Source: an uncultured Actinomycetes bacterium (lineage in GTDB: Bacteria; Actinomycetota; Actinomycetes; Nanopelagicales; Nanopelagicaceae). From it: DNA of 64,000 bases. Shown one piece after another: positions 7,356 to 60,226 of the stretch. Under the pieces are notes generated by a model. The model did not search any database and had not been told where the DNA came from. It saw only the letters and a program-made list of their open reading frames with translations. Made by a program: the position numbers and the translations under genes. How positions within the stretch are numbered: the first letter of the stretch is position 1; every line of letters begins with the position of its first letter. Where the stretch lies: positions 1 to 64,000 of the forward strand of contig CAIPAI010000028.1 in NCBI GenBank assembly GCA_903863015.1, read 5' to 3'.

Positions 7356-7384
7356 GAGAACCCCTTAAGGATAAAGGGGTTCTC
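7356..7384. terminator. Perfect 11-bp inverted repeat, probable terminator
   Basis: Arms GAGAACCCCTT (7356-7366) and its exact complement (7374-7384) enclose a 7-base loop. The repeat lies in the 91-base gap after the ABC permease stop (7424) and before the NlpC/P60 start (7332), where a terminator for the ABC exporter operon would be expected. No long T run follows on either strand, so termination is inferred from position and stem strength only. Confidence 0.6.
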
Positions 7385-7423
7385 GCCTACACCCTTGGAT
7401 TTACTCGCCAGGTTGCCTGTGAA

Positions 7424-8221
7424 TTAGGAGGAGACGTCTCGCTTCTTGAAGAGGAAGGCCGCGAGGGCTCCCGCAGCTATCAAAATTAAGAGAGAGGTGG
7501 TCAACGCCCATTTATAGGTGATCGTGGTCGATCCACCGCTGCCCACTGCCGTCAGCAGCAACCCTGGCAGGTACTTCTGTGTGCTCTCCCAGACGGCCCC
7601 AACGATTCCTTCAACGATCATGACCCAAGAGATACCGATCGCGATCGAAGAAATAGGCGAGCGAAGGATCAAGCCCAGGAGCATTCCAATAATTCCAAAG
7701 CCAACGGTTGCTAGTGAGACATTTGCCAAGGTGGTGAAGAGATTAGAAATGCCTTCGCCACCAACTCCGCCGGCGGTCCAAGCATCGGTAGAAATATCTT
7801 TCGAATTCGCCCAGAAGAAGCTGGTAACCACCGAAATCAGAGATGTTTCTACGACGATTAAGAGGCCAAAGAGCGCCATTGCAAGCGCCTTACCGCCGAG
7901 TAGAACCATACGACGCGGCTGACGCACTAAGAGATTGCGAAGCGTTCCGTGCGAATACTCTTGGGCAGTTTGTGATGCAAAAACCGAAAGCGCAACAATG
8001 CCGAGCAAGGTAGATGCAAAGGCCAAGCCAAGTGAGAGGCCCGTATAACTCTCAATCGAGGCGCGAGTGAAACCAGGTTCACGGCCTCGGCGTGGAGTAT
8101 CCATTGCAATATAGGGAATGGAAGCGGTGAGTACAGCGATTGCTCCAACTGCACCCAAGGTTCCAAAGAAGAGTGTGGGGCGACGGAGTTTGCGCCACTC
8201 GGCGCGAATTACGCGGATCAC
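7424..8221 (-). CDS. ABC-2 type transporter permease
   Basis: A 265-residue polytopic membrane protein with about six hydrophobic segments and the layout of ABC-2/NatB-like permeases: a short cytoplasmic start (IRAEWRKLRRPT), a first helix, an extracytoplasmic loop, then segments around LLGIVALSVFAS, LLIVVETSLIS and IGMLLGLILRS. The motif QEYSHGTLRNLLVRQPRR is typical of this family's cytoplasmic loop. Its GTG start overlaps the ATPase stop by 4 bases (GTGA), so the two form one exporter. The substrate cannot be read from sequence; antibiotic, peptide or sodium export are possibilities for this class. Confidence 0.85.
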   Translation of the reverse strand: MIRVIRAEWRKLRRPTLFFGTLGAVGAIAVLTASIPYIAMDTPRRGREPGFTRASIESYTGLSLGLAFASTLLGIVALSVFASQTAQEYSHGTLRNLLVRQPRRMVLLGGKALAMALFGLLIVVETSLISVVTSFFWANSKDISTDAWTAGGVGGEGISNLFTTLANVSLATVGFGIIGMLLGLILRSPISSIAIGISWVMIVEGIVGAVWESTQKYLPGLLLTAVGSGGSTTITYKWALTTSLLILIAAGALAAFLFKKRDVSS

Positions 8222-9129
8222 TTGGTATCTCCTGTCATTTCAAAGAAAGTCTCTTCGAGCGTGGGACGTACTGCAGCAAGCGAAGCAAGTGTGAGGCCGG
8301 CCGCAAAAGCAAGTTTGTTGAATTCACTAGCCCAATCATCATTCGCAATGACATGAACAGACCCGTCAAGAATGATTCCTTCGTGACCAGCCGATTTTGC
8401 AATTGCAATGAGCTTGGGAAGATCCGCCTCTTCGAGCGTACGTGCAATAACTGTGGGCTGCTGAGCCGCAAGCAGAGACTCGGTGGATCCGCTGAAAATC
8501 ATTTTGCCTTCACGAAGCATTACTAAGTGATCACTGATCTGTTCGAGTTCACTCAACAGGTGGCTAGATACGAAAACTGTGATGCCGCCGTCGGCAAGCG
8601 AACGCAACAACGTACGTACTTCATGAATACCGGCTGGATCTAAACCGTTCGTTGGCTCATCGAGGATGAGAAGTTCCGGTTGGGGAAGAAGAGCCGCAGC
8701 AATACCGAGCCGTTGCTTCATACCGAGCGAGTACTGCTTGTACTTGGATTTGGCGCGATCGCTGAGACCCACCAATTCCAGCAACTCCCCCACGCGTTCG
8801 TGCGGGAAACCGCCGAGGGTGGCAAGCATCTTGAGATTCTCGGCACCAGAGAGCCCGGGATAGAAAGCGGGGCCCTCGATCATGGCGCCCACGCGCTTGA
8901 GGTACCTCTCTGGATGAGTGATCTTTTCGCCGAGCACAGTGCCACTGCCGTCAGTGGGAGTGATGAGCGAAAGGAGCATGCGAATAGTGGTGGTTTTGCC
9001 GGAGCCGTTGGGGCCTACGAAGCCGCAGACGCTTCCCATGGGAACATCGAAGGTGGCGTGATCGAGCGCAAGACGCTCGCCGTAACGCTTGGTCAGTCCG
9101 GTGACTGATATTGCAGAAGAAGTTGACAT
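8218..9129 (-). CDS. ABC transporter ATP-binding protein (exporter, NatA/BcrA type)
   Basis: A 303-residue ATPase energising the permease encoded downstream. Walker A GPNGSGKTT lies at 39-47, the signature region reads YSLGMKQRLGIA, Walker B is LLILDEPTNGLDP and the switch histidine is in SSHLLSE. A C-terminal extension of about 80 residues is usual for this exporter class. ATG at 9129 is preferred over an in-frame upstream start at 9177 because AAGGTG precedes it and the earlier 16 residues do not resemble the family. Confidence 0.92.
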   Translation of the reverse strand: MSTSSAISVTGLTKRYGERLALDHATFDVPMGSVCGFVGPNGSGKTTTIRMLLSLITPTDGSGTVLGEKITHPERYLKRVGAMIEGPAFYPGLSGAENLKMLATLGGFPHERVGELLELVGLSDRAKSKYKQYSLGMKQRLGIAAALLPQPELLILDEPTNGLDPAGIHEVRTLLRSLADGGITVFVSSHLLSELEQISDHLVMLREGKMIFSGSTESLLAAQQPTVIARTLEEADLPKLIAIAKSAGHEGIILDGSVHVIANDDWASEFNKLAFAAGLTLASLAAVRPTLEETFFEMTGDTK

Positions 9130-50092: not shown

Positions 50093-52687
50093 TTATGGGT
50101 TCTTCTTGATACGACCGTCTATTGCAGGCACTGTGAGCGTTCCACGCGTCTGCAACTCGTCGGCGATCACCTGAGCGAGTAGATCACGAAGAGTCGATTT
50201 CAATGGATCAAATTGCGTGTATCCATCTCCACCCAAGATCATGTAATCAATCGTGGCCAAGGTATAGGTCTTCGATGTGTCATTGAGAATCGGCGTGCCA
50301 TCCGCCATCGACACACTGGTTACCCGCCGACCAAGTGGTGCACTTGCGGTGAACTCGAATTTGAGCCCAGATACCACTGGGAACCTGCCCGCTCCTGATT
50401 CGACTTGTGAGACACCGTTCTCTAGGAACGCCCAAACGGTCTTACCGGTGACCTTGGTCGTAGATACGTAATTTCCGAATGGGAAGACGGTGTACACGTC
50501 ACCAAGAGTGACATCGAATGTTCCGAGGTCTGTGGCCGTCTTTGGACGTCGGAGTGTCTTATCTTGTGGCGTGTATGTGAGCGCTGGAAGGTTAGCGCGA
50601 ATTCCACCCCCGTTGAGGAGAGCGAAATCCGTGTTGTATTTCTTGCGCACGATATCCGAGAAGTAATCACCGATTGCCGTCTCTCCTACGCGCTGAATCT
50701 GTGGAGATCCACCATGAGGGAAGACGTTCGTAATCGTGGCGATCTTGGTATCGAACTTTGCTGCCATCTGATCTTCGTATGTCTTGACCATGGCTGCAAC
50801 GTCGGCGTTTGGATCGACTTTGTTGCCATCTGGCACCACGAAGTCTTGCGAAGTTCCGATGAGAGCCTTTGTGACCTTGTCGAAGCAGATTTGAGTACGA
50901 CTGTAAAGGACTCCTGCATTGGGTACTTCTTGGACGAGTGTGCCATTCACTAGGCCAGCCCACTTGAGGTGAGTGTGTCCGCCGTAAACGAGATCAGCAC
51001 CCTTGAGAGCACCTGCAAAATCAATAAGGTCTCCGACCGCCTTATCGGCTGAATCATTCGAATAACCTATGTGATTGATACTGACAACAAAATCAGCCCC
51101 CGCCTTGCGGACATCATCGATTGCCTTCTGGGCTGCCGGTGCTGGATCGGTGATAGTCGCGCCAGCCAGGTTCACTGGAGGAGTGATCGCCATGGTCTCC
51201 AGGGTGGTCGTTCCAACGAAGCCGACCTTGACGCCACCTCTTTCGATGATGGTGTACGGCTTTAACTTCTTAAAGGCAGACGCATTTGAGTAATTCGAAC
51301 CGACCCACTCAAAAGTGGAGAGATCCATCATTTTGTTAAGGTGGACGGAATCACGATCGTGCTCATGATTACCTACAGCTGTGACGTCCAATCCCATCAT
51401 GTTCTCAGCCTTGACAGCTGGAATCTCTTCGAATTGAGACGAGATTGGGGGCGCAGCTCCAAAGTTATCTCCGCCAGCGGCAGTGATCACTGATGTTTGA
51501 GCCCTGTCGTTTCCAAAGTAAGTGGCAAGATTCGCTGCTCCGCCAATCTTGCTCGTCGGTACTTGAATCGCTCCGTGGAAATCGGAGAAATAGTCGACCG
51601 AAACGGACCCGGCTAAGTAATTAGGGACGGACGAGATAAGAACTCGTGCCTTCTTTCCCAAAGTCACGGATGTGACTTGTGGCGCATCCCCAAGTGCGGT
51701 GACCACACCGTCAGAATTTGCTACGTAAAGTCCAGCGTTCGAAGCATAGACGTTGAGGGCGACACCGTTTGCAACTTTGCCGGTGATTTGAGGCGCGCTA
51801 CCGAAGGTGGCAACCGAACCGGTTGAAGTAAGCGCCCAACCGCCATTGCCGAGACGAGAACCAGTTGCCGCAACGAACGTTCCCTTGAGTGAAGCAATCT
51901 TTGGCGCACCTGCGAGGGCCTCAATTGTTCCGTTTTGGTGGACGAGATAAAGACCAGTTGAGGCAGCAACACCCGCTACTACCGGAGAGGTGACTTTGCT
52001 AGCGGCACTCTTGAGAGTTGCACTGCCAAATGAAGTGACTTGACCCTTCTTGTTAATGAGTGTGAAACCCTTGTCATCTGTGGAGGGCAGGATGCTCACC
52101 GTGGTGGCATCAGATTGCGCATCAATATTTAGCGCGTTGCCTATTGGCAATACTCGACCACTCTTGAGAACAGCCCAGTACCCACGACCATCTTTTGTCG
52201 AGGCCGCAGCCAAAACTGTGCCAGAGCCAGAAGGAAGTTGGAGATCTGCACCTGCACCCCACACATGGTTACTTCCATCGGCATCGAAGAGGCGAACGCC
52301 GCTCTCTACCTTGGGTGCGGCGAGAATGGCGGTCGAGGTAACATCGCCTGCCCCTAGAGAATTGAAAGCAGTAACCGTGACATTTCCGGAGGATGAACCC
52401 TGTCCCGCAACCGAGGGAATGAACGCCTGCGTGACGTTACCCGCAACAGTCATACCGCAACCGCCAGCCCCTGTGCTCACTTCATAGCCAGTGATGGCTG
52501 GCGATGCTGCGGGAGCTTTCCACGACACAAGGAGTCCACCAACTTGTGGCGTAATTGTCAGGCCCGATGGTGCACCTGGCCGTGCGTAGGCAGTTTCTGC
52601 ATGTGACGGCTTAGCTAAGTTGAGTACTCCTGTGGCAGCGAGAGCTAATGCGAGCAGCGGTACAAGCCTCTTCTGAGTAATAGTCAT
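50093..52687 (-). CDS. Secreted 5'-nucleotidase with Fn3 and propeller-like repeats
   Basis: An 864-residue exported enzyme. A signal peptide (about 1-30, ending SHA) is followed by a fibronectin type III domain (about 36-123), then five repeats of 37-38 residues starting near 169, 207, 245, 282 and 319 with a G-(Y/F/W)-x-(hydrophobic)...G-x-(V/I)-x-x-(F/L)-G-(D/S)-A pattern, then a metallophosphatase (DFHG, GDNFG, VGNHEHD, GGHTH) and a 5'-nucleotidase C-terminal domain (NGGGIRANL, GGDGY). It would release phosphate from extracellular nucleotides. ATG 52687 is chosen for the signal peptide; no ribosome site is clear. Confidence 0.86.
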   Translation of the reverse strand: MTITQKRLVPLLALALAATGVLNLAKPSHAETAYARPGAPSGLTITPQVGGLLVSWKAPAASPAITGYEVSTGAGGCGMTVAGNVTQAFIPSVAGQGSSSGNVTVTAFNSLGAGDVTSTAILAAPKVESGVRLFDADGSNHVWGAGADLQLPSGSGTVLAAASTKDGRGYWAVLKSGRVLPIGNALNIDAQSDATTVSILPSTDDKGFTLINKKGQVTSFGSATLKSAASKVTSPVVAGVAASTGLYLVHQNGTIEALAGAPKIASLKGTFVAATGSRLGNGGWALTSTGSVATFGSAPQITGKVANGVALNVYASNAGLYVANSDGVVTALGDAPQVTSVTLGKKARVLISSVPNYLAGSVSVDYFSDFHGAIQVPTSKIGGAANLATYFGNDRAQTSVITAAGGDNFGAAPPISSQFEEIPAVKAENMMGLDVTAVGNHEHDRDSVHLNKMMDLSTFEWVGSNYSNASAFKKLKPYTIIERGGVKVGFVGTTTLETMAITPPVNLAGATITDPAPAAQKAIDDVRKAGADFVVSINHIGYSNDSADKAVGDLIDFAGALKGADLVYGGHTHLKWAGLVNGTLVQEVPNAGVLYSRTQICFDKVTKALIGTSQDFVVPDGNKVDPNADVAAMVKTYEDQMAAKFDTKIATITNVFPHGGSPQIQRVGETAIGDYFSDIVRKKYNTDFALLNGGGIRANLPALTYTPQDKTLRRPKTATDLGTFDVTLGDVYTVFPFGNYVSTTKVTGKTVWAFLENGVSQVESGAGRFPVVSGLKFEFTASAPLGRRVTSVSMADGTPILNDTSKTYTLATIDYMILGGDGYTQFDPLKSTLRDLLAQVIADELQTRGTLTVPAIDGRIKKNP

Positions 52688-52789
52688 GGGGACATATATG
52701 AGCATCTGAGAGAACTCAGTGTTGAAAAGAGGTTTCATAATACGAAACAGAAAGTGAACTCTGAGCAACTTCGTTAAAAGCGAAATTTG

Positions 52790-54370
52790 TTAAAGCGAGA
52801 GAAATCTGTTCCTATCCTCCGGAGCGCCAGCAGAGCGCAATAGATCAAACTCACCAGAGCGCCGTTGCCAATGGTTGGCTGAGAGCAAGCGTGAAATCCC
52901 GGCAAGATTTACAGTGCGCTTTAGATCTTCTGAGTCCAAGGATGGCTCAACGGGACCCAGATGGTCAAAGACTGAGGTAGCGATAACTAGCCGCTCTTCC
53001 TCCTCAAAGATCTCAACGAGACGTCCCTGCTGAGGCCAATCGATATTGGAGGAGGTCTGTACGTGCCAAAAACCACGCGCTCCATCGGTATTCCCCACGA
53101 GGTCCGCTTGGTGTTGATGATTATGTCCGGCAAGCCAGAGAATCACCGATGAATGCTTCGCGAGTAAGGAGACCAATTCATCCTCCCCGACTCGAGGCTC
53201 CATGCCATCGGGTGCGTAGAGGTTGAAGAGTGTCGGAGCTGGATGGTGGGAGAGAACCACCACATACTTCGGATCAAGTCCGTTCTCATTTTCTACAAGC
53301 ATCGACTCCAGCCATCGGAGTTGTGCGCGATCAATTGATCCCTGCCATCCACCGTGAATATTTACAGTGTCGAGAGATACAAGTCGAATTTGTCCAACAT
53401 CTCGAACCCAATACTTCTCTCCAGAAACGAGATTCTCCGCCCCGAGGCCGTGGTCATGATCGCACTTTGTATGAAGCTTTGCCCAGGTGAATTCATCATT
53501 AAAGGCCCTGGCAGCGTCTGGCTCTTGATCGATAAAGGTTCCGTTACTGAGGTCAGGGCTCACGATGGGGCCAACTGTGGCAGGAGTGCCGAAGGCCTCC
53601 ATTAAGTCGAGATCCTTTGGTAACTCAACAAGTCTCTTACCCCCGATAGCGTAATTATTGAGCGTCTCTGAGGGTGGCACGCTTCCTTGGATCAGCGCGT
53701 CATGATTTCCATGAGTGGAGAACCAATGGTGACGCAGACCCGGGGCGGTAAATGATTGGCGGACGGCTTTGGTCAGGCCTGGAATTGTTGGGAAGCCATA
53801 AAGTGAGCGAGGGAAATCGTCTTCCTCCCCCGCAGGAGTACCTTCGGGATTCCAGTAACTCCTGTCGTAACGTTCGCCTTCTACCGCTGCAACGCCTTCC
53901 CATGTTGATTGGTCTCCAGATTCAGGGTGCAAGGTTCCACCATGGAGAAGCGTGAGATACCAATCAAGTTCGTTGCCCTGTGCGTTGTCGGTAACATCCC
54001 CAGTAATGACAACAGCATCAATTGGTCTTTTGCTGAAAGCAGAATTAAATAGATTAATTTTGCGAACCATTGCATCGACTGTTTGAGTAGAGAGAATCTC
54101 TTGTGCCCTGTACGCGCCCACTAACTTAACAAGAGCCGAAAATGGATGGTGTGGATCCGCAAAACGATCTAATAATTCCATTCTTGCAGGTGATTGCGCA
54201 TCGCAGATATGAAGATCTGAGATGTGAACTAGGGAAACAAGTGACTTGGCTTTTGATGTAGGTGAACTCCCGATCATCGCCTCTCCCGGAGCCAAGGTCA
54301 GTTCTCTCCAACCCTTTTCATTTGCCGCACCGACTGACATACGGAGGTGTTGTGTATCAAATTCATGCAT
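52790..54370 (-). CDS. Calcineurin-like metallophosphoesterase (PPA1498-like)
   Basis: A 526-residue metallophosphoesterase. All five family motifs occur: HISDLHI (49-55, D52 and H54), ITGDVTDNA, HGNHDAL, VVLSHHPAP and LAGHNHQHQ. It resembles the actinobacterial group typified by the Cutibacterium protein PPA1498 (recalled from memory). There is no evident signal peptide. The start overlaps the ABC ATPase stop by 8 bases, so it is part of the phosphonate transporter operon and probably frees phosphate from an organic ester. Confidence 0.84.
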   Translation of the reverse strand: MHEFDTQHLRMSVGAANEKGWRELTLAPGEAMIGSSPTSKAKSLVSLVHISDLHICDAQSPARMELLDRFADPHHPFSALVKLVGAYRAQEILSTQTVDAMVRKINLFNSAFSKRPIDAVVITGDVTDNAQGNELDWYLTLLHGGTLHPESGDQSTWEGVAAVEGERYDRSYWNPEGTPAGEEDDFPRSLYGFPTIPGLTKAVRQSFTAPGLRHHWFSTHGNHDALIQGSVPPSETLNNYAIGGKRLVELPKDLDLMEAFGTPATVGPIVSPDLSNGTFIDQEPDAARAFNDEFTWAKLHTKCDHDHGLGAENLVSGEKYWVRDVGQIRLVSLDTVNIHGGWQGSIDRAQLRWLESMLVENENGLDPKYVVVLSHHPAPTLFNLYAPDGMEPRVGEDELVSLLAKHSSVILWLAGHNHQHQADLVGNTDGARGFWHVQTSSNIDWPQQGRLVEIFEEEERLVIATSVFDHLGPVEPSLDSEDLKRTVNLAGISRLLSANHWQRRSGEFDLLRSAGAPEDRNRFLSL

Positions 54371-55439
54371 GCTCAGCCATCACCTCAGACGCTGCTACTT
54401 TGAAGGAGATGTGTTGCCCAATTTCGAGGTGTTTTACATCTGAGCTTGAGATATTGATGTGGATAAGTGGCGAGCCCTCGACGGCGATACCAAGTTTCGT
54501 CAATGGACCGAGGAAAGATTTAAGAGCAATAAGACCACGTGTCGCATCCGGGTCATTCTCCGACGTCAAGATCAAAGTTTCTGGACGAATAATTGCCGTG
54601 ATCTTCGTACCCGGAGCAAAGGTAGATACCGCGCGGGAAAGTGAAATAGATTGATTGAGAATCCTTACCCCACCAGCAGCAGTGACCTCCCCTGGAATCC
54701 TGTTCGCTAGACCGACAAAGGAGGCAACAAAAGGTGAGGAAGGGTTTGTGTAGAGCTCAATTGGCGTATCGATTTGCTCTAGTTTTCCATGATTCATCAC
54801 ACCAACACGGTCAGCAATAGACATCGCCTCCTCCTGATCGTGCGTCACAAATAACGTTGTGATACCCAGTTCAATTTGGATTCGTCTGATCTCCTCCCGA
54901 ATCTGGCTACGCACTTGAGCGTCTAGGGCCGAAAGTGGTTCATCGAGCAAGAGCACATTCGGCTCGATTGCAAGCGCGCGAGCAAGAGCGACACGTTGTT
55001 GCTGACCCCCAGAGAGCTGATGTGGAAAAGCTTTCGCTTTGCTGCCAAGTTCGACGAGGGCGAGCATCTCACTTACCCGCTTACTACGATCACGGGCAGG
55101 AATTTTCCGTGCGCGTAATCCGTACTCAATATTCTCGGTCACATCAAGGTTTGGAAAGAGGGAGTAAGACTGAAAGACCATGCCCATATCTCGCTGATGT
55201 GCTGGGGTCTCGTTATAACGCACACCATTAACCGTTAGATTCCCCGCGCTCGCGTGCTCCAACCCAGCGACAATGCGAAGTGCAGTGGTCTTGCCGCAAC
55301 CGGAAGGACCCAAGAGTGCAACCAATTCACCAGGATTCACCTTGAGATCTAAACCGTCCAGGGCTCTCACTTGTCCGAAGAATCGACTCACTCCGCTCAG
55401 TTCTAGCGTGCTGCTCACGCGCCGAGTTATGCCTGTCAT
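54363..55439 (-). CDS. ABC transporter ATPase, PotA/PhnT-like
   Basis: A 358-residue importer ATPase: Walker A GPSGCGKTTALR, Q-loop GMVFQSYSLFP, signature LSGGQQQRVALARAL, Walker B VLLLDEPLSALD, H-loop FVTHDQEE, and a C-terminal TOBE region (about 240-358). Such ATPases serve spermidine, iron and 2-aminoethylphosphonate importers. Its neighbours favour an organophosphonate. ATG 55439 overlaps the permease stop (ATGA). Confidence 0.9.
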   Translation of the reverse strand: MTGITRRVSSTLELSGVSRFFGQVRALDGLDLKVNPGELVALLGPSGCGKTTALRIVAGLEHASAGNLTVNGVRYNETPAHQRDMGMVFQSYSLFPNLDVTENIEYGLRARKIPARDRSKRVSEMLALVELGSKAKAFPHQLSGGQQQRVALARALAIEPNVLLLDEPLSALDAQVRSQIREEIRRIQIELGITTLFVTHDQEEAMSIADRVGVMNHGKLEQIDTPIELYTNPSSPFVASFVGLANRIPGEVTAAGGVRILNQSISLSRAVSTFAPGTKITAIIRPETLILTSENDPDATRGLIALKSFLGPLTKLGIAVEGSPLIHINISSSDVKHLEIGQHISFKVAASEVMAEHA

Positions 55440-56236
55440 GAAAGGGCTCCTTCGTTTTCGCTCTCTAGTGATTCGCGCTTCGTACCTCTACGGGAAAGCA
55501 ATGAAATGAGGGTGAGTAGTGCAATAGCACCAATAAAACTAAATACTGAGATAGCAATCGCCCCAAGAATGTTCTGTTGGGCGGCAACTACAGTCCACGT
55601 GGGGAATGTTTCCCAATGTAGGAGTGAGGTAATGGTGTATTCACCAATCCCAAGCGCGAACGCTAGAAATAGCGCGCCTAGGATTCCGCTACGAATCGCA
55701 GGAACTATTACACGTAGAATCGTCGCGAACCAGGACGCTCCCAAACTGCGGGAAGCTTCAACGAGAGTTTTAAGTTGAACAGTCTGCAAAGAAGTATCAA
55801 TAGCTCGGTACGTGTAAGGAAGCGCGATGATTACAAAGAAAAAGACTAATTCATACTCAGAATTCTGAATTACCTCAGGCATAGCTACTTGCGCACCAAT
55901 TGCTAAGGAAACTACTGGAATGATAAGCGGGAGTATGCAGAGAAAATCGATGAGTGGTTTGAACCGTTGAGCTTTCAAGTTTAAAAAGACCATCGTAGGA
56001 ACCATAAGTAACAAAGTCAATATGCCAGCGATGGCAGCTAACTTGAGCGAGGCGAAGAGGTTCGGATAGAAACCATCTTGCTCAAGAAGCCAGCGATAAT
56101 TTGCTAGAGAGCGACCTTTTCCAGCTTCTCCGCGAAAACTGTATGTGGCAGCGGCAAAGAGTGGAAAGACAAATATAAGTAGAGATAGAAAAGCGGAGGC
56201 GCCGATGAATATCCATTTGAATGGAGAGACCTTCAT
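55436..56236 (-). CDS. ABC transporter permease (second), PotC/PhnV-like
   Basis: A 266-residue inner-membrane permease with six helices and the BPD-type EAA motif EASRSLGASWFATILRVIVPAIRSGILGA (near 165-193) that contacts the ATPase. ATG 56236 overlaps the stop of the first permease gene (ATGA) and is preferred to ATG 56248 inside that gene. It forms a heterodimeric channel with the first permease. Confidence 0.88.
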   Translation of the reverse strand: MKVSPFKWIFIGASAFLSLLIFVFPLFAAATYSFRGEAGKGRSLANYRWLLEQDGFYPNLFASLKLAAIAGILTLLLMVPTMVFLNLKAQRFKPLIDFLCILPLIIPVVSLAIGAQVAMPEVIQNSEYELVFFFVIIALPYTYRAIDTSLQTVQLKTLVEASRSLGASWFATILRVIVPAIRSGILGALFLAFALGIGEYTITSLLHWETFPTWTVVAAQQNILGAIAISVFSFIGAIALLTLISLLSRRGTKRESLESENEGALS

Positions 56237-57120
56237 GATTGCCGCCATTTAGCAGCACTCTTTTGCGCCCAAACATAACCAATCATGGCGACTCCAGCCA
56301 CGATGATCATTCCGACCGCGAGTGCATCACCTAGATTTTGTTGGTCTGAAACAACGTTTCCATCAACTAGCGTGCCGATGATGATCGGGACGAGCGGAAC
56401 CGTGCCAACGGTTAGAGCGCGCGCCGTCGCGTATGCAGAAAATCCGCCTGCAAAGAGAAGAAAGAAGGCGCCAAAAAAGGATGGCAACAACATCGGAATG
56501 GCAACACGACGCCAATAAGTCACTTGCGTAGCACCAAGATTGGTACTTGCCTCCAGCCACTCTTTGCGTAGCCCGGAGATGGCTGGTTTAAATACTAGGA
56601 ACATGAGAGGAATTTGAAAGAACGAGTAGACCATCACTACACCAGTAAAGGAGAATATGGTGAAGTGGCCGGCGTAAATATCCCAGCCCAAAGTTTTGAG
56701 AACTCTAGTTACTAATCCTTCAGTACCAAATGCAGCGATGAACATAAAGGCCAAAGGAACGCCACCCGAGTTAGCAAAAACTGCAGAGATGGAATCTAGA
56801 ACAGCGCTGAATTTTCCAGACGCGTACCGTACAACAACGTAAGCAAAGAGCGCTCCTAATAATGAGCCAATGATCGAAGTGATGAGCGAGAGCTTGATGC
56901 TGGTGGTGAATGCATGAAGATACGAACCGTGGAGTAGGGGGGTGTAATTGGAGAAGGTCCATTCACCTTCGTTACCTCTGAGGGATCTCAGAGTTACCGC
57001 AAGAACTGGCCAAATTAAGAAGTAGCCGGTGAAAGCAAAGAAAGGGAGTAGCGGAAACACCTGAGAACCAAGTCGACCGCCTTGAGTCTTTCGAGGTGTT
57101 TCCACTACTCCACTTTTCAT
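56233..57120 (-). CDS. ABC transporter permease (first), PotB/PhnU-like
   Basis: A 295-residue permease with about six helices and an EAA loop EASTNLGATQVTYWRRVAIPMLLPSF (near 188-213). ATG 57120 begins 13 bases after the binding-protein stop; the longer frame reaches into that gene and is not used. The length, arrangement and EAA loop match permeases of the iron/spermidine/phosphonate superfamily. Confidence 0.88.
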   Translation of the reverse strand: MKSGVVETPRKTQGGRLGSQVFPLLPFFAFTGYFLIWPVLAVTLRSLRGNEGEWTFSNYTPLLHGSYLHAFTTSIKLSLITSIIGSLLGALFAYVVVRYASGKFSAVLDSISAVFANSGGVPLAFMFIAAFGTEGLVTRVLKTLGWDIYAGHFTIFSFTGVVMVYSFFQIPLMFLVFKPAISGLRKEWLEASTNLGATQVTYWRRVAIPMLLPSFFGAFFLLFAGGFSAYATARALTVGTVPLVPIIIGTLVDGNVVSDQQNLGDALAVGMIIVAGVAMIGYVWAQKSAAKWRQS

Positions 57121-57133
57121 ATGATTTTCGTTA

Positions 57134-58330
57134 TTAGTTGCCGGCGATTGCTGGCCACTGCGCCTTAAGCAGTGTCTTCGCAGCATCTTGCTGTGCAACG
57201 GTTGGAGTAATTACCTTGACACCCTTGGGAATGCCGTAGCCTTCGGGCGCCGTGACATTGGTCTTCTTAGCGACCATGGCATCAAACGTGATAGGGAGTG
57301 CACCACCGAGGATCCAGATGTTCTGTCCACCCATGATGGATGAGAAGATCTTGGAGCCGGTCATGCCCTTGGTTGAGCCAACCGTCATTGAAGTCTTGCC
57401 ATTGTTTTGTGAGTACAAGAACTCAGTCCAGAGACGAGCAGCCGCTGGGTGTGGTGCGTTGAATGGAATCGCCATCACGTACGGCGTTCCCTTGATGACT
57501 GCATCAGTAGGAATGATGTATTTTACGGTCTTTCCAGCCTTTGCAGCAGTGGCAACCGCTCCTGGACCGTTGAAGGACCAAGAGAACGAAACCTTGTATG
57601 CGCCGGCGAGGAAGTTTTGTCCGTTAGCCAATGCAGTCACGAAGTTGCCTGAAGTCTTGAGGGACTTGAAGTAGTCGATGCCGGGTTGCACGCTGTCAGC
57701 AGTACCACCGGAAGCTACAGTCGCCGCGAAGACAGACATTAAAGCCTCTTGGGCACCTGATGGATCCCCACCGATGGCTAGCATATTTTTGTAGGCAGGA
57801 TCCTTGAGGTCAGAGAATGTCTTAGGCGCCTTAGGGATTGAGGTGTCATATGAGAGCGCCATGACGCCTGCATAGTCTCCAGCCCAGCGCCCGGATGGGT
57901 CTTTGTAGTCGGCAGTGATATCCGCCCAGTTCGCAACCTTGTAAGAAGTAAATAGGTTTGTGTTGTCAAGTGCATAGGTGATACCGACATCAACTGCGTC
58001 AGGAACCTTCGACGCCGGTGCGGTCTTCACTGTTTGAATTTCGTAGGCCGATGAACCGTCTGGGTTATCATCTGTAATCTTAATTCCGAATGCCTTGCTG
58101 AAAAGGTCCATTGCTTCACCGTAATTTGCCCAGTCGCGAGGAAGGGTGATCACGTTTAGCTTGCCTTCTTTTTGGGCAGCCTTCACGAGTGCGTCCATGC
58201 CACCGCACGCCTTAAGGTTTTGGCACTTTGAGAAGTCGGTGCCTGCTGCTGTAGAGACTGAAGATGTTGCCACCAATGAAGCGGCAGCCAGGGCGGCTGC
58301 AACAACTCCAATAATGAATTGCTTGCGCAT
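57134..58330 (-). CDS. ABC transporter substrate-binding protein, probable phosphonate
   Basis: A 398-residue exported binding protein of the type 2 periplasmic fold, similar to spermidine/iron/2-aminoethylphosphonate binders. A signal peptide (about 1-30, ending STA-AG) is followed by KLNVITLPRDWANYGE, DVGITYALDN and GVMALSYDT segments. The cluster context (FAD oxidase and phosphonatase-like genes) suggests aminoethylphosphonate or an N-methyl derivative. ATG 58330 has AAGGAGG about 5 bases upstream, a strong site. An 88-base gap separates it from the HAD gene. Confidence 0.84.
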   Translation of the reverse strand: MRKQFIIGVVAAALAAASLVATSSVSTAAGTDFSKCQNLKACGGMDALVKAAQKEGKLNVITLPRDWANYGEAMDLFSKAFGIKITDDNPDGSSAYEIQTVKTAPASKVPDAVDVGITYALDNTNLFTSYKVANWADITADYKDPSGRWAGDYAGVMALSYDTSIPKAPKTFSDLKDPAYKNMLAIGGDPSGAQEALMSVFAATVASGGTADSVQPGIDYFKSLKTSGNFVTALANGQNFLAGAYKVSFSWSFNGPGAVATAAKAGKTVKYIIPTDAVIKGTPYVMAIPFNAPHPAAARLWTEFLYSQNNGKTSMTVGSTKGMTGSKIFSSIMGGQNIWILGGALPITFDAMVAKKTNVTAPEGYGIPKGVKVITPTVAQQDAAKTLLKAQWPAIAGN

Positions 58331-58418: not shown

Positions 58419-59105
58419 TTAAAAGATGGTGCGAATAGACGTGGCAGAAGAAAGAACTTGCGTGGCTCCGGCACGTTCGAGTTGCTCCCGAGTGTGCTCA
58501 CCTGTGGTTACTCCGATGGCGTGACGGGCCCCAGCAGCTACCGCGCTACGCATATCTGATTCGGTATCGCCCACTACACATACCTGATCTGCTCGAATAA
58601 CAATATTTAGTGATTTTTCGGTAATTTCTATGCATCGCTTAATCATGTCTGGTGCTGGGCGACCTTCTGCCACCTCGGAGGCTGCTACAGAAATATCAAT
58701 TTTATCGCGCCACTGCAAGGCATCGATGATGGGGTCAAGAATCTCCCGTGGGAATCCAGTAGTAATCGCAACTAATATTCCATCGGAGCTGAGTGAAGCA
58801 AAGAGTTGGCTTATCCCAGAAAACTCCTCGAGCCTGCCTTCACCTATTAACTCAATGTAGGCGGATACGAAATCATCATGAGCTTGTGCAGCCTTCCCAG
58901 CGTTCCCATGAAAAAGGTGCATGAAAACGTCAATCTTTCGTTGGCCCATCGTGGCACGAACGTACTCAACTTTCTCACCTAGTTCAGCTTCGGAATAAGC
59001 TTCATCTCGAGACTTGATTGCTCGCTCAAAGGCTTCGACAACGAGACCTTCGTCTTTGGCCGTCGTTCCGGCCACATCAAATACGACAAGCGCTACTTGC
59101 TCCAT
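58419..59105 (-). CDS. Phosphonatase-like HAD hydrolase (PhnX-like)
   Basis: A 228-residue HAD enzyme. The nucleophile motif is D10-V-A-G-T-T, as in phosphonatases, not the DxDGT of ordinary phosphatases. MGQRKID (53-59) places K57 where phosphonoacetaldehyde hydrolase has its Schiff-base lysine in MGxxKID. GRPAPDMI and VGDTESDM supply the remaining HAD motifs. It most likely breaks the C-P bond of phosphonoacetaldehyde to acetaldehyde and phosphate. The start overlaps the FAD oxidase stop by 13 bases. Confidence 0.88.
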   Translation of the reverse strand: MEQVALVVFDVAGTTAKDEGLVVEAFERAIKSRDEAYSEAELGEKVEYVRATMGQRKIDVFMHLFHGNAGKAAQAHDDFVSAYIELIGEGRLEEFSGISQLFASLSSDGILVAITTGFPREILDPIIDALQWRDKIDISVAASEVAEGRPAPDMIKRCIEITEKSLNIVIRADQVCVVGDTESDMRSAVAAGARHAIGVTTGEHTREQLERAGATQVLSSATSIRTIF

Positions 59106-60226
59106 GACGCAATCGTCTCCTCGGCAATGCCTGGCGAAAGGGTATTTCCCCGACCCCCAGCGCCGGTGACGATAACAGCCCCAGGTGCAATTTCTTTCCT
59201 AAAGTAAATATCTGAGCTCGTCGATTGGCTATAGACACCGTCCCACCGCTTACCTAGAGGTGGGGCTTCACTTCCAAAAATTGAAGTGATAACTGATCTG
59301 AGATGATCATACGGAGCTTCGGAAAGTTCGTGATCGAATGGCTCGTCGTATTCATGCGTATCTCCGATTGTCATAGAGCCATCAGATCGCTGAACTAATA
59401 GCAGTTGCATATATCGCTCGGCCGCAATGCCGCTTTGTCGTGGGAGCGTGTCGATAGAAAGATTCTTAAATGCCGGGTAGTAACGAAGAGAATCACCATC
59501 TGCCAATGAATGGCTTAACTTCTCCTTCATCGGTACCGTTGCAGCCATCTGTAACCGCACCTTACGAACTGCGGCATCACTCATCTCTTCGCTTAAGAAG
59601 CCGCCGTGAGCTGCTCCAGCGCAGAATGCTACATAATCCGTTGAATAATCTTTTCCCGAAGTATCAACCACATGGTTTCCGGTTGAGTCGTGATAGAAAT
59701 CAGTAATCTCACATCCAGGTTTCCATGAGTAGGTTGAGAATGTGCTCAAATAGTTACGCAATCCACCGAGCAATATTGGCGGCTCAACAGCTGCATCTTC
59801 CGTACATTGGAGAGCACCTAAATAGTTGCCGGCCAGCATTGGTTCTAAATCTCTCGTCTCGGCAGCGGTCAGTACTCGAAACCCGCGCAAATGGGCATCA
59901 TCCATATTGGCGGCTTCGTATAGGACGTTCATTTCCGCTTCGTTAGATGCAATAGTGAGTGAGCCATTTGGTCGAAAACCGATTTCCGCTTTTCCGCCGA
60001 TGGCGCCCCAAAGGGCACGTGCACGTAGCGCGAGCCGAAGCTCTGGGCCGACATCTCTTCCGCTCACCCAAACGAGTCCAAAATTTCTGACTGAAGCAGA
60101 AGTTGGTTTTAGATCTCGTTCTAAATGTAGAACTTCAAATCCCGCCTCGCACGCAAGAAGTGCATGCATAGTGCCAATGATTCCGCCGCCAACTACGACT
60201 ACTCGCTCTTTCACATCACTATCCAA
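59093..60226 (-). CDS. FAD-dependent amine oxidoreductase of phosphonate clusters
   Basis: A 377-residue DAO/glycine-oxidase-like flavoprotein. VVVVGGGIIGTMHALLA (8-24) binds FAD; SASVRNFGLVWVSGRDVG (about 43-60) resembles the TIGR03364 group seen beside PhnX-like hydrolases (from memory); VTGAGGRGNTLSPGIAEE closes the fold. It probably oxidises aminoethylphosphonate or an N-methyl form to phosphonoacetaldehyde, making the substrate of the downstream hydrolase. TTG 60226 is the longest start; GTG 60214 is possible. It is the first gene of the operon. Confidence 0.82.
   Translation of the reverse strand: MDSDVKERVVVVGGGIIGTMHALLACEAGFEVLHLERDLKPTSASVRNFGLVWVSGRDVGPELRLALRARALWGAIGGKAEIGFRPNGSLTIASNEAEMNVLYEAANMDDAHLRGFRVLTAAETRDLEPMLAGNYLGALQCTEDAAVEPPILLGGLRNYLSTFSTYSWKPGCEITDFYHDSTGNHVVDTSGKDYSTDYVAFCAGAAHGGFLSEEMSDAAVRKVRLQMAATVPMKEKLSHSLADGDSLRYYPAFKNLSIDTLPRQSGIAAERYMQLLLVQRSDGSMTIGDTHEYDEPFDHELSEAPYDHLRSVITSIFGSEAPPLGKRWDGVYSQSTSSDIYFRKEIAPGAVIVTGAGGRGNTLSPGIAEETIASWSK

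Follow-up and report, generated by a model that had tools for sequence, protein, structure and literature searches.

Introduction

Oxidation of an aminophosphonate to phosphonoacetaldehyde by a flavoenzyme is a published chemistry, with the PbfC and PbfD enzymes converting N-methylated 2-aminoethylphosphonate (N-methyl-AEP) into phosphonoacetaldehyde and methylamine (Zangelmi et al. 2023, PMC10590968). In that study, PbfD1 of Acinetobacter baumannii and PbfD2 of Mariniblastus fucicola use O2 efficiently while PbfC carries out the same reaction as a dehydrogenase; in addition, PbfD2 oxidizes 2-aminoethylphosphonate (AEP) itself only about fourfold less efficiently and substitutes for a missing PhnW (PMC10590968). 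The pbf carriers named there are Proteobacteria, FCB and PVC bacteria, with homologues in Terrabacteria not being tied to phnWX or phnWYA clusters (PMC10590968). PbfD1 is annotated as TIGR03364 ('HpnW_proposed'), a family for which the curators proposed a substrate, possibly hydroxy-AEP (quoted in PMC10590968), and which they had already linked by synteny to the hydrolase family TIGR03351. Our literature search found no assay of the actinobacterial branch of these FAD and HAD enzymes, and a search on phosphonate use in the Nanopelagicales or acI bacteria found nothing about the operon described here. This operon lies in the window, the whole 64,000-nucleotide stretch of DNA that was analysed, from an uncultured member of the Nanopelagicaceae related to actinobacteria that are common in lakes. 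While the type of pathway is thus already published, the assignment of the window operon to a divergent actinobacterial branch of the PbfD/PhnX-like type is well supported.

Results

Operon and gene families

The operon comprises seven genes, listed here from the first to the last.

59093-60226, (-) strand: FAD-dependent amine oxidase-like protein (TIGR03364 / PbfD-type, DAO fold), 377 aa, TTG start; operon gene 1
58419-59105, (-) strand: PhnX-like HAD hydrolase, 228 aa, TIGR03351 at 182.9 bits, with DVAGTT (D10 nucleophile) and MGQRKID (K57, presumed Schiff-base lysine)
57134-58330, (-) strand: ABC substrate-binding protein (SBP_bac_6), PF13343 at 58.6 bits, weak match (33.6 bits) to the aminoethylphosphonate binding-protein model
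56233-57120, (-) strand: ABC permease 1, CysT/PotB/PhnU-type matches, every one below cut-off
55436-56248, (-) strand: ABC permease 2, top NCBIfam match TIGR03255 PhnV at 53.4 bits, far under cut-off
54363-55439, (-) strand: ABC ATP-binding protein, PhnT2-like, top NCBIfam match TIGR03265 PhnT2 at 396.6 bits (cut-off 457.7)
52790-54370, (-) strand: metallophosphoesterase (TIGR03767, 316.2 bits), no evident signal peptide; last operon gene

All of these genes reside on the (-) strand with ends that overlap or nearly abut, the overlap between the FAD and HAD reading frames being 13 bp. Judging from the sequence, the frame of the binding protein extends to 58501 with the likely start (MRKQF...) at 58330, followed by a signal peptide, and that of permease 1 extends to 57198 with an ATG at 57120 as the likely start. 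Apart from the ATPase, the importer components matched AEP transporter models weakly, and a promoter and terminator scan yielded nothing over shuffled expectation. Directly after the operon is a gene (50093-52768) whose large product is 5'-nucleotidase-like and extended at length at its N-terminus; we rejected this gene as an operon member, as it does not adjoin the operon in 20 extended loci from relatives.

In curated profile searches, the FAD protein matched TIGR03364 best, at 276.6 bits vs. a cut-off of 285.1 and over its full length (residues 8-370 on profile positions 2-365), with glycine oxidase ThiO as runner-up (78.7 bits) and 147.3 bits for PF01266 (DAO) in Pfam. The top profile for the HAD protein was TIGR03351 ('phosphonatase-like hydrolase'), at 182.9 bits vs. 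a cut-off of 218.9, with only 71.4 bits for TIGR01422 PhnX (cut-off 220), 54.3 bits for phosphoglycolate phosphatase and HAD_2 as its Pfam assignment. On these scores, TIGR03364 and TIGR03351 appear to be the right families, but the pair would belong to a divergent branch of them, falling short of the curated cut-offs by 3% (FAD protein) and 16% (HAD protein); likewise, the HAD protein is best regarded as a PhnX-like family member rather than PhnX proper. A sequence-only reading of this DNA had described a HAD enzyme with DxAGTT and MGxxKID motifs, and both (D10-V-A-G-T-T and M53-G-Q-R-K57-I-D) are indeed found in the hydrolase frame. That reading had also described an overlapping, glycine-oxidase-like FAD gene; the gene and its overlap stood.

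Active site and predicted structures

A multiple alignment of 79 hydrolase sequences revealed invariant D10, A12-G13-T14, M53-G54, K57, G148-R149-P150, D180 and D184. The cap lysine is put in the wrong place when the HAD protein is aligned pairwise to PhnX structures, and it is the multiple alignments that place K57. Two PhnX residues, His56 and Tyr128 in B. cereus numbering, presumably correspond to V60 and F118 of the window HAD protein; these same two positions align with His58 and Tyr130 of a plasmid-encoded Acinetobacter PhnX, and the PhnX-like proteins of Tsukamurella and Gloeocapsa likewise have a phenylalanine and a small residue there. The aligned residues suggest that the pocket of the HAD protein differs from that of PhnX at V60 and F118.

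The AlphaFold2 models had mean pLDDT values of 93.7 (HAD protein) and 93.0 (FAD protein). With Foldseek, the HAD model matched phosphonoacetaldehyde hydrolase structures among many other HADs, and the FAD model matched glycine oxidases, with 4ysh as the top PDB match; the folds alone are therefore indecisive, and function is decided by residues and context.

Conservation and distribution

In a survey of 251 genomes of the order Nanopelagicales, TIGR03364 was found in 37, TIGR03351 in 38 and both in 36, with the two genes adjacent in the loci retrieved; the FAD-HAD pairing far exceeds chance. Just one of the two genes occurs in G067 (a fragment of the oxidase), G023 and G133 (the hydrolase). 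The TIGR03364 cut-off is passed by orthologues in 11 of the 251 genomes (maximum 293.5 bits), while that of TIGR03351 (218.9) is reached in none of them; the TIGR01422 cut-off (220) is not reached in any of the 18 genomes searched, where the sole matches are the operon hydrolase at sub-threshold scores. Distribution is patchy, since neither gene was found in three further genomes from the genus to which the window belongs. The operon is also carried by a cultured acI-C1 strain, IMCC26077 (CP015606).

Oxidase, hydrolase and binding protein follow one another in a constant order wherever a retrieved locus contains the three of them. In the extended loci, the order from FAD gene through HAD gene and ABC transporter to metallophosphoesterase is complete in 17 of 20, the first permease having diverged too far in three of them to be matched clearly; the remaining three break the order, two by having no oxidase and one (L086) no phosphoesterase, leaving TIGR03767 present in 19 of 20. 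This metallophosphoesterase is the conserved operon end in the window's family and was undetected beside the pair in loci of soil actinobacteria. The two loci with no TIGR03364 oxidase are those of G023 (L071, hydrolase at 7383-8084) and G133 (L072, hydrolase at 8125-8790), which belong to one genus and have kept the hydrolase, transporter and phosphoesterase; here the hydrolase reads MGQSKIA, and each genome harbors several other DAO-family proteins.

Phosphonate context in other bacteria

Among 80 named FAD loci, the hydrolase was found in 77, including those of Amycolatopsis, Kitasatospora, Streptomyces, Gordonia, Mycolicibacterium and Williamsia. In Amycolatopsis decaplanina, the pair has a PhnF-like regulator before it and, after it, an AEP substrate-binding protein (471.6 bits vs. 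a cut-off of 310) with PhnT- and PhnV-like proteins; in Gordonia, genes of a PhnCDE-type transporter, for PhnD-like and PhnE (504 bits vs. 216.7) proteins, sit between the FAD and HAD genes. On plasmids of Tsukamurella and Gloeocapsa, TIGR03364 is grouped with genes for a PhnX-like hydrolase and an AEP transporter, and a plasmid of Acinetobacter carries an AEP transporter, TIGR03364, phnW and phnX consecutively. Two Acinetobacter enzymes fall within TIGR03364 (296.8 and 302.3 bits), one being from A. baumannii, the species of the validated PbfD1. As a side observation, the plasmid-collection records NZ_CP104448.1, NZ_CP077849.1 and NZ_CP064203.1, labelled "Acinetobacter baumannii" and ~3.7-4.1 Mb in size, look like mislabelled chromosomes.

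Compared with five distant members of TIGR03364, the window FAD protein shows 24-30% identity. Its clade shares 27 positions with all five, including RNFG (47-50), Q226-M227, Y250, G288-D289-x-H291 and W328-x-G-x-Y332, and many residues conserved inside the actinobacterial branch differ from the distant relatives. In our tree, a long branch separates the actinobacterial FAD group from the sequences of Acinetobacter, Gloeocapsa, Hymenobacter and Tsukamurella, with long-branch warnings and poorly placed outgroups.

Transaminase and C-P lyase genes

The sequence-only reading had reported neither a PhnW nor a C-P lyase gene in the window, and this absence extends to the whole genome (99.5% complete), in which PhnW, PhnJ of the C-P lyase and PhnA were all absent on genome-wide search. 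The best PhnW score was 51.5 bits vs. a cut-off of 400.8, contributed by other class V aminotransferases, and the best with the PhnW-AepZ profile was 52.5 bits vs. 360.8. Across the 39 genomes carrying either gene (that of the window and 38 relatives), phnW was absent in all at E 1e-25. We rejected a phnW hidden elsewhere in the genome on these scores and counts; the genome search, proposed beforehand as one that could refute the pathway, found none.

Discussion

We consider it likely that the operon serves the uptake and breakdown of an aminophosphonate by a pathway of the PbfD/PhnX-like type, of which we infer the substrate, products and electron acceptor. The ABC importer would take up an aminophosphonate, most likely AEP and/or N-methyl-AEP; the FAD enzyme would then oxidize its C-N bond to an imine, hydrolysis of which would give phosphonoacetaldehyde and ammonia or methylamine. 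In the PhnX-like HAD, K57 would form a Schiff base with the aldehyde and D10 would attack the phosphorus, releasing acetaldehyde and phosphate in a route that would run without PhnW. An aldehyde supply by the flavoenzyme in place of a transaminase had been proposed in the earlier reading, and it gains support from: 1) the families of the two enzymes; 2) the catalytic residues; 3) the lack of phnW, phnJ and phnA; and 4) the phosphonate transporters beside the pair elsewhere. A preference of the window enzyme for N-methylated substrates, in turn, would be by analogy only. As for the metallophosphoesterase, our guess is that it frees the aminophosphonate from an imported ester. Several features speak against the PbfD/PhnX-like route, namely the 24-27% identity of the FAD protein to the Acinetobacter enzymes, its long branch, the scores below cut-off, the V60/F118 pocket, the weak AEP-model matches of the importer outside its ATPase and the lack of catalase and KatG-type peroxidase hits described below. 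The two relatives (G023 and G133) that lack the oxidase and keep the rest of the operon also count against an oxidase-fed hydrolase.

Part of this evidence would also be in keeping with the same chemistry acting on another aminophosphonate, for example 1-hydroxy-2-aminoethylphosphonate or one that is longer or carries a substituent, with the HAD enzyme cleaving a substituted phosphonoacetaldehyde. Hydroxy-AEP is the possible substrate named by the TIGR03364 curators (quoted in PMC10590968), the branch is divergent with many branch-conserved residues that differ, and V60 and F118 are unlike PhnX; however, N-methyl-AEP and AEP are the substrates of PbfD1 and PbfD2, which belong to this broad family, and an AEP-type binding protein scoring above cut-off adjoins the Amycolatopsis relatives, so we hold a different substrate to be quite unlikely. 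It is highly improbable, in our opinion, that the FAD protein instead serves ordinary amine metabolism, as an enzyme resembling glycine or sarcosine oxidase, and that the HAD protein is an ordinary phosphatase of the phosphoglycolate type. By fold, the FAD protein does come closest to glycine oxidase (4ysh), and the HAD protein lies near a large number of generic HAD phosphatases, but these identities were rejected on profile scores (TIGR03364 276.6 vs. ThiO 78.7 bits; TIGR03351 182.9 vs. phosphoglycolate phosphatase 54.3 bits), and the MGxxK motif is invariant with phosphonate transporters adjoining the pair in other actinobacteria.

Within the preferred reading of PhnW-free aminophosphonate breakdown, the FAD enzyme may, instead of being an oxidase that uses O2, be a dehydrogenase that hands its electrons to a quinone or a carrier protein. 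Searches of the window's genome and three relatives detected their positive controls but neither a monofunctional heme catalase (PF00199) nor a KatG-type peroxidase (PF00141), and this absence sits awkwardly with the presumed production of H2O2. It can possibly be explained by low flux, protection by peroxiredoxins or an acceptor other than O2. PbfC, catalyzing the same reaction, is a dehydrogenase (PMC10590968), but the nearer characterized enzymes PbfD1 and PbfD2 use O2 efficiently (PMC10590968), and we regard a dehydrogenase as unlikely, albeit a serious contender. We also speculate, as an improbable combination of these ideas, that in the actinobacterial branch the metallophosphoesterase frees an imported phosphonate ester and the FAD-HAD pair degrades a different, possibly substituted, aminophosphonate, perhaps with an acceptor other than O2.

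If the oxidative route is correct, members of the freshwater acI family, including IMCC26077, and many soil actinobacteria would mine aminophosphonates oxidatively and free of PhnW, and a route shown in vitro for Acinetobacter and planctomycete enzymes would extend to a well-populated actinobacterial branch. Surveys keyed to PhnW or PhnX would miss this route because the HAD proteins score far under the PhnX cut-off.

Compared with known systems, the locus is closest in kind to those of PbfD1 and PbfD2, sharing the DAO family, clustering of the gene with a phosphonatase and, in the case of the Acinetobacter protein, membership in TIGR03364 like the window FAD protein; PbfD2, going by its published description, resembles it in standing in for an absent PhnW. 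On the other hand, the window FAD protein is only ~24-27% identical to the Acinetobacter sequences, and the plasmid copy in Acinetobacter is partnered by a TIGR01422 hydrolase and phnW whereas the partner in the window is TIGR03351. The PhnWX pathway differs in that the window's genome has no PhnW and a HAD that is PhnX-like, without the His and Tyr of PhnX (V60 and F118 instead), but the same aldehyde intermediate and the same HAD nucleophile and lysine chemistry would be expected. Among curated families, TIGR03364 and TIGR03351 are the best for the window pair, which also displays the synteny already known for these two.
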